Shown here: piece by piece, positions 15,750-27,945 of the stretch
Layout: every line of letters starts with the position of its first letter
How positions within the stretch are numbered: the first letter of the stretch is position 1
DNA from: Lysinibacillus sphaericus
GTDB taxonomy: Bacteria; Bacillota; Bacilli; Bacillales_A; Planococcaceae
Length of the DNA stretch: 64,000 nt
Reading direction: 5' to 3'
NCBI RefSeq assembly: GCF_002982115.1
Contig: NZ_CP019980.1
Coordinates: 132,001-196,000 of the forward strand
Translations under genes and position numbers: made by a program
Notes under the pieces: model-generated
What the model was told of the DNA's origin: nothing
Database searches by the model: none
Seen by the model: only the letters and a program-made list of their open reading frames with translations

Positions 15750-16259
15750 ATGGATAAAAAAATGAAAATGGGTATTCGGACTAAGATTACCCTCGGTTAT
15801 GTAGTTATTATTCTTTGTTTACTTGCGTCAGTGATTATATTAAACAATCAAATTACTTCCCTACAAAAGGAAAGGAATTTTATTATTAAATATGATTCTC
15901 AAGTACAAACACTTACAAATCGTATTGAAAAATATATTTTAGATATGGAAACGAGCCAACGAGGCTATATTATTACGGGTGATTCGAGCTATTTAGAGCC
16001 ATACGAAAATGCCGAAGAAAATTGGAAGATTGACTATGATGAACTCTATCAGTTATTAGAAAATAGGGGCAATCAGCAAAAGAAGTTAGAAACTATTAAG
16101 GCTACGATAGAACATTGGATTGCGACATCTGGTGAACCGACAATACATTTAAAAAAAGAAAAGAATACGGTAGCGGGACTGACCCCGATATATAAGACAG
16201 TAATCAAAAAAGCATTACCCAACCAGTTGTCGGTATTGAACCGGCGACTGGTTGTTTAG
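15750..16259 (+). pseudogene. 5' part of IS-split hybrid histidine kinase
   Basis: This is the N-terminal fragment of a hybrid histidine kinase, interrupted at 16174 by the IS. It has TM1 (about residues 10-30 from ATG 15750) and the start of a CHASE3 extracellular sensor (ETSQRGYIITGDSSYLEPYENA). ATG 15750 is preferred over an upstream ATG at 15717 because AGGTAGGG precedes it by 6 bases. After 16174 the frame continues into the IS and stops at 16259, adding 28 foreign codons. The fragment lacks the second membrane helix and all signalling domains, so it should be non-functional. Joining 15750-16174 to 17466-19788 gives an intact 915-residue protein. Confidence 0.9.
16171..16174. repeat. Target-site duplication TAGC, left copy
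   Basis: TAGC directly precedes the left inverted repeat of the IS and is repeated at 17462-17465 directly after the right end. The 4-bp length is within the 3-4 bp usual for IS3-family elements. Confidence 0.85.
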
Positions 16260-17063
16260 TTTCGTTTGAATTCGGTTATTGTTATAATAGTTTATATAGT
16301 CTTTGACAGTTTGTTCTACGATGGCCGTCGTAGTACTGTTCAAATTGTCTAAGTAGAATGTTTCAGACTTTAACACAGAATGAAACGATTCGATTGGGGC
16401 ATTATCAGCGGGCGTACCTTTACGGGACATGCTCATGGTAATGCCTTTTGCTTTTACGGCCTGTTGATAATCATACGATGTGTATACCGCCCCTTGGTCA
16501 CTGTGCAACGTACACCCTTCGGGCAAATGATGAAGTTGAGCTAATGTATCCAGCACAAAATCAGTATCTTGGCAGTCTCCAATCGAATAGGCAATAATTT
16601 CACCATTATATAAATCTTGAATACTTGAAAGATACAACTGTTTTTGACCAAATGGCAAGTAAGTAATATCAGTTACGAGCTTCTGTAACGGTGCGGTGGC
16701 TTCAAAATCGCGATTTAATAAATTTGCTGCGATTGCATAAGGTTGTCCTGTTCGTTTCCGTTTTTTCACTTTCACGCGACATTGCCAACCATATTTTTGC
16801 ATGATACGTTGAACCACTTTATGATTGACGCACATTTCTTGACGTAAGAGTGCTGTAATTTTTCTGTAGCCATAGCGAAATTTATTTGCTCGACAGAGTT
16901 CACCGATACGTCTCTCTATTGCTTGACGAGACCTTGCATCGGTTGATGCCTGTTTCCAACGATAGTAGGTAGATCGTGCAATCCCAAAGTGTTTACAAAT
17001 GTCCTTTACAGACATCATGCTTCTTAGTGACGCAACTAACTGTACTGCTACTTCTCCAACCAC
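16215..17063 (-). CDS. IS3-family transposase OrfB (integrase core)
   Basis: This 282-residue product has an HTH_21-type region near the N-terminus (IERRIGELCRANKFRYGYRKITALL) and an rve integrase core. The DDE acids are visible in VTDITYLPF (first Asp), LHSDQGAVYTS (second Asp) and the ESFHSVLKSE segment (Glu). The apparent GTG start is probably not used. The frame is open back to the slippery AAAAAAG at 17090-17084, and a -1 frameshift there would make an OrfAB fusion as in other IS3 elements. OrfB alone may also be made. Confidence 0.93.
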   Translation of the reverse strand: MVGEVAVQLVASLRSMMSVKDICKHFGIARSTYYRWKQASTDARSRQAIERRIGELCRANKFRYGYRKITALLRQEMCVNHKVVQRIMQKYGWQCRVKVKKRKRTGQPYAIAANLLNRDFEATAPLQKLVTDITYLPFGQKQLYLSSIQDLYNGEIIAYSIGDCQDTDFVLDTLAQLHHLPEGCTLHSDQGAVYTSYDYQQAVKAKGITMSMSRKGTPADNAPIESFHSVLKSETFYLDNLNSTTTAIVEQTVKDYINYYNNNRIQTKLNNQSPVQYRQLVG

Positions 17064-17365
17064 TTCCTCTCCAACTCTGCGTACTTTTTTAGCACCTCAA
17101 TTTGTTGCTTTAAATAACGGTTTTCCAATGCTAATTTCGTTTGTTCATTGTCCGGTTCAGGACCCTTATTAAAGATATATTGTTTGCCTACAGGTTGTTT
17201 CAAACGATTGACTTCACCATTTCTATACCAACGCACCCATGTTTCGACCTGTGTTTTATGGCGTATATTTAATTCCAATAGAATCTGTTTGACAGGTACA
17301 CCCGCTAATCGCATCTTAATCGCTTTCATTTTTACTTCATAGGGATAACTCACTCTTGTTCCCAT
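17048..17365 (-). CDS. IS3-family transposase OrfA
   Basis: This 105-residue product has an N-terminal helix-turn-helix (YPYEVKMKAIKMRLAGVPVKQILLELNI) that binds the terminal repeats, and a C-terminal leucine-zipper-like helix (LALENRYLKQQIEVLKKYAELE). It begins 97 bases inside the right end of the IS, after a ribosome site GGAGGTG. Its last codons contain the slippery A-AAA-AAG used to shift into orfB. OrfA alone usually regulates transposition. Confidence 0.93.
   Translation of the reverse strand: MGTRVSYPYEVKMKAIKMRLAGVPVKQILLELNIRHKTQVETWVRWYRNGEVNRLKQPVGKQYIFNKGPEPDNEQTKLALENRYLKQQIEVLKKYAELERKWLEK
17084..17090 (-). promoter_or_regulatory. Programmed -1 frameshift site A-AAA-AAG
   Basis: On the minus strand orfA reads CTA AAA AAG TAC. 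The heptamer AAAAAAG is in the correct phase for -1 slippage, after which the frame continues GTA CGC AGA GTT into orfB without a stop. Confidence 0.75.
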
Positions 17366-17421
17366 AGAAAAAACACCTCCAAATTGAAATTTAAGTATCT
17401 ATACCCGAATTTCAATCGAAG

Positions 17422-19788
17422 ATGCTTTTTTTATTTGTCTATACCTATTGGGGTCAGTTCCTAGCATTGCAAGAATTTTTTAAAGTAGATGTTGGACGCA
17501 AAGATATGGACACGATGCGAAAGCAATTTGACGCTTTCCGTGCAGATGAGAACGCATTTACGCAAACTAAAGCAAAACAATTAGACAAAACAAATAGTAA
17601 TTTAACTACGGCATTATTTGGTATCTTAGTGCTTGTATCTTTTATTGCGATTGTTATAGCTAGTGGGATTTCACGTTCAATCGTCAAAACAATAACAGAG
17701 GTCACACAAACAATTAAAGAAATTGCCGCTTCAAAAGGTAATCATCGAACAAGGATTCACGTTAAAACGAATGATGAAATTAATGCGCTGGCAGATGCGA
17801 CAAATGAGTTGTTAGATACACTTGAGCGAAGAGAATGGCTGCAAGCTAATATCGCTGAAATCGTTACAAAATATCAAGGTATTTCTGCTATCACGAAATT
17901 GGCTGAAACTTTTCTTTCAGAAATGGCGCAAAAAACACAATCATCCTTCGGTGCATTTTATGTGCGAGAAATGCACAATAACGAAGTCTGCTTTGTGAAG
18001 AAAGCGTCCTTTGCTGACATGGGAGACAAGGTTGGTATTGACCAATTTAAAATTGGACAAGGTTTAATTGGTCAATGTGCGCTTGAAAAACGGGTTTTCA
18101 TTAATCACGATGTTTCGCAAGATTATCGTTTAATCGGAACAGGTTTAGGTGAAGCACCACCAAAGAGTATTTTTATTTTCCCCATTATATTCGAAGATGA
18201 GGTTATAGCTGTCGTAGAACTTGCGACGATGAAGAGTTATACAGCGTTACAGCAGGAATTGGTGAACCAAGTAATCGAAACATTTGGATTAACGGTCAAT
18301 AGCATTTTAGGACGTATGGAAATTGTACGACTCTTAAATGAATCAAGAGCCATGACAGAGGAATTACAAGTACAATCGGAAGAGCTACAAACGCAATCGG
18401 AAGAGTTACAAATGCAAACAGAAGAGCTCACGATGATTAATGAACAGCTTGAGGAAAGAACAAAAGAAGCTGAAATGAAAACGAAAGAATTAGAGAGCGC
18501 CAAAAAAGATTTAGAAGATAGTGCGGAGCAACTTGTATTAAATTCTAATTACAAATCTCAGTTTTTAGCCAACATGTCCCACGAATTACGGACACCATTA
18601 AATAGCATTTTAATTTTGTCTGAAATGTTATCAGAGAATGGCAACGATAATTTAACGGAAGAAGAGATGGAATTTGCAAGAGTCATTCATTCTTCTGGTG
18701 AGGATCTACTTGCATTAATCAATGATATTTTAGATATATCAAAGGTTGAGGCTGGTAAAATTGAAATTATTTTTGATGAAGTAAATATGAGTGAATTGCC
18801 AATGCAAATAGAGCAAATCTTTGCGCCAGTAGCTAAGAAAAAGAATTTAGAATTGCATATTTCGAAAGCACCAAACGTAGTCGATATTTTCTATACAGAC
18901 GAAAAGAGATTCCAACAAATTTTAAAAAATTTATTATCAAATGCATTGAAATTTACGGAACAGGGTTATGTACATTTAAATATTAAGCAGCTTGATCATC
19001 AACAACTAACATCTAATATGCAAGAAGTAAGCACAGAATGGCTTGAAATTACGGTATCTGATACGGGAATAGGTATTCCAAAGGACAAGCATCAGCTAAT
19101 CTTTGAATCCTTCCAACAAGCAGATGGGGCTACTGTACGTAAATATGGTGGAACAGGTCTTGGTTTATCCATTTGTAAGGAATTTGCAAAATTACTTGGA
19201 GGTTGGGTTGCATTACAAAGTGAAGAAGGGAAAGGCAGTAGCTTTACGCTCACTATTCCAAGTTTACCTAACGGCTTAAATACGACAGCCATAGATTCCG
19301 CTTATGTTGAAGTGGTCGCTACACTAGAAGCAGATGACATTGTTGAAGAAGTGGAAGAGCAAGTAGAGGAAAGCTATCAGGTTTCTCCACAAGAAGTAGA
19401 AGTTTTCCAAGGGAAAAATATTTTAATCGTAGATGATGATAATCGCAATATCTATGCATTGAAAGCAGCGCTTGAAAAAAGAGGCATGAATATTCTCGTT
19501 GCAAAAGATGGATTAGAATGTTTAGAGATTATGGAGACGAATAATAAAATAGATCTTATTCTGATGGATATTATGATGCCGAATATGGATGGATATGAAA
19601 CAATGTCTATTATTCGTACGAAAATGAAGCTTACTGATTTGCCAATTATCGCTTTAACAGCAAAAGCAATGAGTACAGATCGTGATAAATCTCTAGAAGC
19701 AGGTGCATCTGATTATATTAGTAAGCCGTTAAATCTAGATCAATTAGTATCGGTCTTACGCGTATGGCTAGTTTCTAAAGGGAGTTAA
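17422..19788 (+). pseudogene. 3' part of IS-split hybrid histidine kinase
   Basis: This frame opens inside the IS end (ATG 17422). The original gene sequence resumes at 17466 with the CHASE3 remainder (LQEFFKVDVGRKDMD). Domains in order, numbered from 17422, are: TM2 (about 54-76), HAMP (77-130), GAF (about 150-295), and a coiled coil with EELQTQSEELQMQ heptads (about 310-375). HisKA follows with MSHELRTPLNS (His near 390), then HATPase (DTGIGIPKD and GTGLGLSICKEF) and a C-terminal receiver (phospho-acceptor in ILMDIMMPNMDGYE). If translated from 17422 it would be a one-span kinase without its sensor. Its catalytic domains are undamaged, so residual or constitutive activity is possible. Confidence 0.88.
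17462..17465. repeat. Target-site duplication TAGC, right copy
   Basis: This is the right partner of 16171-16174. Keeping one TAGC gives ACG GTA GCA TTG CAA GAA across the junction, which restores the kinase frame. Confidence 0.85.
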
Positions 19789-19797
19789 AAAATAAGC

Positions 19798-20652
19798 ATG
19801 GATAATCAATTCCAAAATTTTGAGCTAAAGCAACAAATGAATAAGCATGCGGATATGGAAATTGAGTTACTACTCGAAGCTATCTATCGTTTATCCGGTT
19901 TTGATTTTCGACAATATAATCGCTCATCTATTTCTCGTCGCATTTATAATCGGATGAGGGTGAGTAATATACCGACTATTTCCCGGGTACAAGAAAAAGC
20001 GATACATGAAGAAAGTTTTTTGGAACAGCTCTTGAATGATTTTTCTATCAATGTCACAGAAATGTTTCGTAATCCTAGCTTTTTTAAAGCGTTCCGTAAA
20101 GAAGTTGTGCCCTATTTAAGACAGTACCCAGAAATTCGTATATGGCATGCAGGATGTGCTACAGGCGAAGAGGTGTACTCAATGGCTATATTATTACAGG
20201 AAGAAGGACTAATAGATAGGTCTGTGATTTACGCTACGGATATGAATGAGCATGTGTTAGAAAAGGCAAAAAAGGGCGCCTTCTCAATAAAAAAAATGCA
20301 AGCATATACAACGAATTATATGCTTGCGGGGGGGAATCATGCTTTTTCGGAATACTATAAAACTGACTATCAATACGCCTATTTCCATCCGGAACTTTTA
20401 AAAAATATTATTTTTGCACAGCATAATTTAGTAACAGATCAATCCTTTAATGAATTTCATGTGATTGTCTGCCGCAATGTTTTAATTTATTTTTCTCCTG
20501 CTCTACAAAGCCAAGTACATCATTTATTTTACGATAGTCTAAGCCGAGATGGCTTTTTATGTTTAGGTGATAAAGAAACGCTACGTTGTGACGGGATCAT
20601 TTCAAAATATAAAGAAACTGTTGCCATTGAAAAAATTTATCAAAAAAAATAG
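19798..20652 (+). CDS. cheR: CheR-type protein-glutamate methyltransferase
   Basis: This 284-residue product has the all-alpha CheR N-domain (about 20-80; GFDFRQYNRSSISRRIYNRM) and an SAM-dependent methyltransferase domain. The SAM loop reads IWHAGCATGEEVYSMA and the later motif is FHVIVCRNVLIYF. It begins 9 bases after the split kinase gene, so it was co-transcribed with it. In related stress-signalling clusters a CheR is paired with hybrid kinases and RsbU-like phosphatases and need not act in chemotaxis. The IS upstream is likely polar on it unless an internal promoter exists. Confidence 0.88.
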   Translation: MDNQFQNFELKQQMNKHADMEIELLLEAIYRLSGFDFRQYNRSSISRRIYNRMRVSNIPTISRVQEKAIHEESFLEQLLNDFSINVTEMFRNPSFFKAFRKEVVPYLRQYPEIRIWHAGCATGEEVYSMAILLQEEGLIDRSVIYATDMNEHVLEKAKKGAFSIKKMQAYTTNYMLAGGNHAFSEYYKTDYQYAYFHPELLKNIIFAQHNLVTDQSFNEFHVIVCRNVLIYFSPALQSQVHHLFYDSLSRDGFLCLGDKETLRCDGIISKYKETVAIEKIYQKK

Positions 20653-27661: not shown

Positions 27662-27945
27662 GGCTGGGACAAAAGAGAAAAAGTGTTAGATTGAACCTAA
27701 TCAATCTAACACTTTTTTGCTATGTCGTTGTTGTCCGCTACGACGATGCTTTCCGCTCAGCACCGTAAGCCGCAACCCTTGCTAACGCGCGGAATGCCCG
27801 CGTCTTACATTGTGTGCTGTTCCAGCCGGAGTCACCGTCTCCGCTTGAACACTTCTCTTTATTGCAAAGCAAGAAGAGCCATAAATAGCAAAAATTTATG
27901 AACATCTTTTCTCTGTTCCTTAAATTTTTTAGTTATGTCCCAGCC
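27662..27945. repeat. MITE-like element, copy 1 (284 bp)
   Basis: The ends GGCTGGGACA (27662-27671) and TGTCCCAGCC (27936-27945) are perfect 10-bp inverted repeats (11 bp counting the flanking A and T). Inside are a strong hairpin, AAAAAGTGTTAGATTGA against TCAATCTAACACTTTTTT (27678-27718), and a GC-rich core (GTAAGCCGCAACCC...GCTAACGCGCGGAATGCC). A second copy lies inverted at 60116-60428. No frame codes for a transposase. It occupies the whole gap between two convergent genes and ends 2 bases from a stop codon. No clear target duplication is seen. Confidence 0.8.

Follow-up and report, generated by a model that had tools for sequence, protein, structure and literature searches.

An IS3-family insertion sequence with an apparent preference for intrinsic-terminator-like targets splits a hybrid kinase gene of Lysinibacillus sphaericus

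The 64,000-nucleotide stretch of Lysinibacillus sphaericus DNA analyzed here (assembly GCF_002982115.1, contig NZ_CP019980.1, positions 132,001 to 196,000 of the forward strand; hereafter the window, with positions counted from its first letter) carries a hybrid histidine kinase gene whose sensor domain is split by an insertion sequence (IS) of the IS3 family. It is very probable that this recently active IS prefers targets resembling intrinsic terminators, that the kinase gene was hit as a look-alike site lacking the hairpin, and that the kinase was thereby lost and the downstream CheR gene starved of transcript. In the proposed target layout, an A tract is followed, usually, by a hairpin arm, then by a loop that holds the insertion point, the second arm, and a T tract, and the transposase would read the tracts or the hairpin directly. 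The kinase gene, which lacks a real hairpin, would have been hit since its A and T tracts have the proper spacing and lie on the proper strand.

The IS occupies 16175–17461 on the minus strand (1,287 bp; ends GGGACTGACCCC / GGAACTGACCCC) and is flanked by the target duplication TAGC at 16171–16174 and 17462–17465. Removal of the IS and one TAGC restores a frame of 2,748 bases with the junction NTVALQEFF. An earlier note, made from the letters of the window alone, had described this insertion and its exact removal, and its coordinates, duplication, 915-residue frame, and junction were all reproduced; its count of 916 codons without a stop is right in length (2,748 bases) and wrong in one detail, as codon 916 is the terminal TAA, the sole stop. 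Pfam domains follow each other over the two pieces as CHASE3, HAMP, GAF, HisKA, HATPase_c, and Response_reg, the order expected of a CHASE3-GAF hybrid histidine kinase. The 5′ part (15750–16174, plus strand), which ends in the first TAGC copy, contains most of CHASE3 (2.1e-25 on 15750–16256), and the remaining five domains lie in the 3′ part (17466–19788, plus strand). These domains and the precise duplication agree with the note's description of an otherwise intact kinase of this type split by an IS, and chance is not a sufficient account of the structure because the element has 16-bp inverted-repeat ends, is present in 15 full-length copies, and is accompanied by a duplication at each.

The recent activity of the element is evident from these copies. 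Eleven of the 15 are 100% identical over 1,287 bases, in accordance with the recent insertion proposed in the note, three have 14, 15, and 17 base differences, and one is longer by a base. The duplication is 3 bp long at 14 copies and 4 bp long at the kinase copy. For each of four insertions examined among the 14 others, the exact empty site is present in both near relatives (G017 and G021; 8 of 8 comparisons), and at two of these four sites the hairpin is present in the relatives without the element.

The target preference was measured at 42 sites, comprising the 15 own copies and 27 copies from 16 further organisms identified by record title (three as "sp."). A T tract, defined as four of five bases being T within bases 6–28 of the junction, is found on the transposase 3′ side at all 42 sites, compared with 33% of 8,400 random points in the same loci and 42% of 4,945 non-coding points, chosen to avoid open frames of at least 80 amino acids. 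Tracts on both sides of the junction are found at 36 of the 42 sites (12% of random and 18% of non-coding points). Hairpins that span the junction reach −12 kcal/mol or better at 22 sites (6% and 4%, respectively) and −8 kcal/mol or better at 28 (21% and 15%). The tracts also keep a register, with T at 64–86% from +14 to +20 and A at 50–67% from −16 to −22. Where one side alone has a tract (six sites), it is always the transposase 3′ side, which hints that one insertion orientation is preferred.

Copies outside the genome were gathered by transposase match and then by end motif, with only GNACTGACCCC-like ends retained; a first automatic end search had given false ends in many distant copies and the end motif was used instead. 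Of the 115 loci examined in this step, 46 gave 47 end pairs and 69 gave no pair (relics, cut contigs, and other ends among them). Two loci with the same insertions as others (L061 and L062, corresponding to L066 and L068), one with a cut flank (L095), and two pairs in L108 with no left flank were left out. The hairpin measure, which takes the energy of pairs spanning the junction together with the tracts, was picked after a first look at the data and was applied unchanged to the non-coding control points and to the plasmid copies described below. It replaced the counting of junction-spanning pairs in the minimum-energy fold because chance pairing occurs in short random stretches; that count separated weakly (at least 12 pairs at 26 of 42 sites and at 34% of points).

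Ten of the 15 own empty sites have a junction-spanning hairpin of −8 kcal/mol or better with A and T tracts, the arrangement of an intrinsic terminator. In these ten the junction lies in the loop and the site is intergenic, and the kinase copy is among the other five. Open frames of 81 and 91 amino acids cross two of the hairpin sites (L001 and L011) and are taken for chance. Plasmid copies provided a fresh test: all seven scorable copies lie in terminator-like hairpins of −18 kcal/mol or better, flanked on each side by a tract, and 2% of 1,050 control points reach −12 kcal/mol. The plasmid sample comprised 12 of the 20 matches listed from 99 records, from Priestia and Terribacillus. Ends of rRNA operons were considered as a common landing site and rejected, since no rRNA was found in the nine loci examined at Rfam gathering scores. 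Rfam matches near IS copies were RAGATH-18 (L001, 3623–3697) and ncr1575 (L009, 4109–4285).

At the kinase site (L010), the insertion point is flanked by two tracts: an A-rich tract to the left (16151–16165, plus strand), which is a T tract in the transposase orientation, and a T tract to the right (17476–17481, plus strand), which is correspondingly an A tract. Both near relatives share these tracts, and therefore the tracts predate the insertion. Under a position model whose training set was the remaining 41 sites, 161 of 125,316 positions in the empty window (0.13%) outscore the kinase site, which ranks 5th of the 5,394 positions in the gene on both strands; the top position of the model in the gene is junction 420, on the same strand as the real junction 421, although the kinase site was kept out of training. 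The kinase insertion thus looks like an off-target event at a site that resembles a terminator in its tracts.

Several results weigh against the explanation as a whole. A good hairpin is lacking at the kinase site (span energy −5.5), whose copy is the only one of the 15 with a 4-bp duplication. When the model is trained on other genomes only, the kinase site falls to rank 23 of 5,394, and L001 and L011, which are true hairpin sites, score near 0.3; L012 fails altogether to fit the position model, with 56% of positions scoring higher. The model is regarded as rough because several true hairpin sites score poorly with other-genomes training. In the scored set, the span energy is weaker than −8 kcal/mol at 14 of 42 sites and the duplication is absent at four (L067, L068, L069, and L121), and five of the 12 plasmid copies have no recognizable ends with duplication and were left unscored. 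Finally, a simple insertion does not explain a patch of divergence beside the IS, which is weighed below.

Among the five own copies that lack a good hairpin, three are inside open frames and one is at the start of an sCache sensor kinase. The latter (L009, 1489–1501) is an identical copy placed 11 bases before the start codon of an sCache/SPOB-type sensor kinase gene, and together with the kinase copy it brings to two the sensor kinases that the element touches in the genome. One copy (L002, 521–1477) lies in a 355-amino-acid frame whose 318-amino-acid piece has no Pfam match, and another (L012, 2757–3782) lies in a gene of the PD-(D/E)XK transposase family.

The location of ten of the 15 own copies in intergenic hairpins might also be produced by random insertion, with gene copies purged by selection so that terminator-rich intergenic sites remain. 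This is most improbable, as the contrast persists when the sites are compared with non-coding points alone, the purging of gene copies does not produce the register of the tracts (T at 64–86% from +14 to +20), and the copies inside genes (the kinase copy and L002) keep their tracts. A different history of the kinase copy is suggested by the patch, which covers codons 104–142 (16059–16174, plus strand), with the last change of the cluster at 17469, four bases past the second TAGC. Thirteen of the 22 changes on the own branch fall in codons 104–143, with the other nine in 875 codons (binomial 7e-13, for a stretch picked after the data had been seen). The note's statement that the frame is undamaged on both sides needs this qualification for the 40 codons beside the insertion. 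Seven of the 13 changes are silent and six are replacements, and relaxed selection is not the cause because both kinds are raised. Over the patch, the own sequence is 87.5% identical to each near relative, and the near relatives are 96.7% identical to each other; in the 120 bases to the left of the kinase site there are 14 differences, compared with at most seven to either near relative in 120 bases on each side of the other four insertions examined (4 of 4). Several of the 13 changes match more distant relatives. The simplest reading of these comparisons is that a diverged piece was imported, with or without the element. These observations favor a version in which the IS, having first inserted in another strain, itself arrived through homologous recombination along with a short piece of a diverged kinase allele, but no donor was found among the 29 relatives compared, none of which exceeds 87.5% over the patch, and the kinase copy has the same sequence as ten others in the genome, which fits a jump from within. 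Arrival with an imported allele is accordingly considered rather unlikely, and the target preference stands in either case.

The loss of the kinase, with starvation of the CheR gene for transcript or a reduced supply, is the most likely consequence of the split in the sensor domain. The contrary possibility, that an unregulated kinase is made from the 3′ part with expression starting in the IS, is raised by an in-frame ATG at 17422 inside the IS, from which a predicted open frame of 788 amino acids (17422–19788, plus strand) runs through the 3′ part with its HAMP, GAF, kinase, and receiver domains, and by two promoter-like matches on the kinase strand within the IS at 16569–16598 (10/12) and 16796–16825 (9/12). 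Inspection by eye found no clear ribosome site at this ATG, however, and promoter-like matches over the region are no commoner than in shuffles (20 compared with 21.1). The IS also has a strong hairpin on the kinase strand near its left end (16220–16254, 45 bases inside the IS; 15 pairs; −27.3 kcal/mol for 16205–16275, z −4.7), upstream of both matches, which may hinder transcripts on that strand and would oppose read-through from the kinase promoter. Expression of the 3′ part is thus distinctly unlikely. A mixed population, in which some cells keep the uninterrupted gene, is favored only by the recent activity of the element and is very unlikely, since the host genome is a single contig of 4.68 Mb with the IS in place in the kinase.

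Use of intrinsic terminators as landing sites is familiar from class C group II introns, which are retroelements that insert after the hairpin; the element described here likewise lands at terminator-like sites and differs in inserting in the loop. In the literature searched, seen in part and with ISfinder and most subscription reviews outside its scope, no description of terminator targeting by an IS3-family element was found. The target preference is a variant on known hairpin-targeting insertion. IS1397 and ISKpn1 insert into REP (palindromic) units, and according to one source their transposases appear to be responsible for target specificity (PMC1525189). As with those IS3-family elements, some insertions fall in dispersed palindromes, four of the 15 own copies being in one hairpin family; unlike them, the present element also uses hairpins without a shared stem, in several genera, and A and T tracts are common to its sites. 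IS1272/TnSha1, of the IS1182 family, has hairpin targets without primary sequence specificity, several of them confirmed terminators (PMC4923244). Hairpins are likewise the targets here (terminator-like by sequence), but IS1272/TnSha1 inserts in the stem and deletes part of the target without duplication, whereas the present element, which belongs to another family, inserts in the loop with a duplication of 3–4 bp. Duplications at 15 of 15 own copies and exact empty sites in 8 of 8 comparisons indicate insertion with duplication. IS1447, an IS3-family element of Firmicutes, has 3–4-bp duplications, a high copy number, and +1 transcriptional slippage, and the parts of that paper that were available do not describe a terminator target (PMC6211511). 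The present element resembles it in family, duplication length, and copy number, and differs in its A AAA AAG site, OrfB being in the −1 frame.

A wide IS3-family clade in Bacilli probably recognizes the architecture of terminators and not a sequence, inserting into loops with one orientation favored; the stretches without genes where transcription units end would then serve as safe sites, and insertions in genes, such as that in the kinase, would be look-alike errors. If this is true, the many copies with little damage would be accounted for, the genes at risk would be those in which A and T tracts are spaced about 30–40 bases apart, and an ordinary IS3-family DDE transposase would provide a simple system for asking how transposases see A/T tracts or hairpins when the DNA is double-stranded.

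The element has two reading frames on the minus strand. OrfB (16215–17063) is a transposase with an rve domain (Pfam, 2.4e-18) that scores 302.6 bits against the IS3-family model NF033516 (NCBIfam transpos_IS3; cut-off 160), and OrfA (17048–17365) is called from reading frames and matches the N-terminal part of that model below the cut-off. OrfB overlaps OrfA in the −1 frame, and a frameshift is predicted from the A AAA AAG slip site at 17090–17084. Target duplications in the IS3 family are 3–5 bp long, and all own copies, with 3 or 4 bp, fall within this range; the element is presumably akin to IS150. Its inverted repeats match at 14 of 16 positions (88%), and its ends are GG...CC. One source gives TG...CA as typical of the family, with CA ends "generally conserved" (PMC6211511), and the present element departs from this, although such ends do not strictly define the family. 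Within the genus, the element is matched at E 1e-200 or better in three of 32 genomes (own included), and the nearest named record of the transposase is from Lysinibacillus mangiferihumi (98%). An inverted repeat at 17383–17416, just upstream of the OrfA ribosome site, could be a guard against outside transcription. In a sister group whose ends resemble GGCACTGAC (L077–L094; Lysinibacillus macroides and others), ends and duplication were found in 13 of 18 loci, with hairpins of −9.5 kcal/mol or better at six of the 13 sites; these sites are outside the 42 and have no controls.

The kinase locus is conserved in relatives. The 3′ part is matched at E 1e-100 or better in 34 of the 61 genomes searched (own included), and the kinase is uninterrupted in all 29 relatives whose DNA was compared, of the 33 that match; the junction DNA itself was viewed in five of the 29. 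G017 and G021 align over the identical 2,748-base span with zero gaps (46 and 109 substitutions, respectively), and thus the uninterrupted kinase is ancestral. The junction proposed in the note agrees with that of uninterrupted homologues, which run ungapped across it in these two genomes. The next gene, which encodes a CheR-type methyltransferase (19798–20652, plus strand; Pfam CheR 6.9e-42), starts 9 bases past the kinase stop and directly follows the kinase in 28 of the 29 relatives, and sequence comparison points to an intact kinase–CheR pair as the ancestral state. The split itself is ordinary, and it provides a natural mutant of this conserved pair. In two of the 29 relatives (L058 and L060), there is one stop within the matched kinase stretch.

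The dispersed hairpin family mentioned above has a member in the window at 27680–27715. It is defined by a constant stem, AAAGTGTTAGATTGA, and a variable loop, and 47 uninterrupted copies are present in the genome, compared with none for the reversed control pattern. The four own IS copies inserted in hairpins with this stem are insertions in a dispersed palindrome, and the other hairpin sites lie outside this repeat. The stem pattern occurs in 78, 67, 44, and 49 copies in four near relatives, and in 1 and 0 copies in two others. The bases beside the stem are alike, by eye, in 17 of 20 copies compared among the 47, and the family has the look of a directional dispersed repeat, similar to REP elements with their IS1397-type guests.

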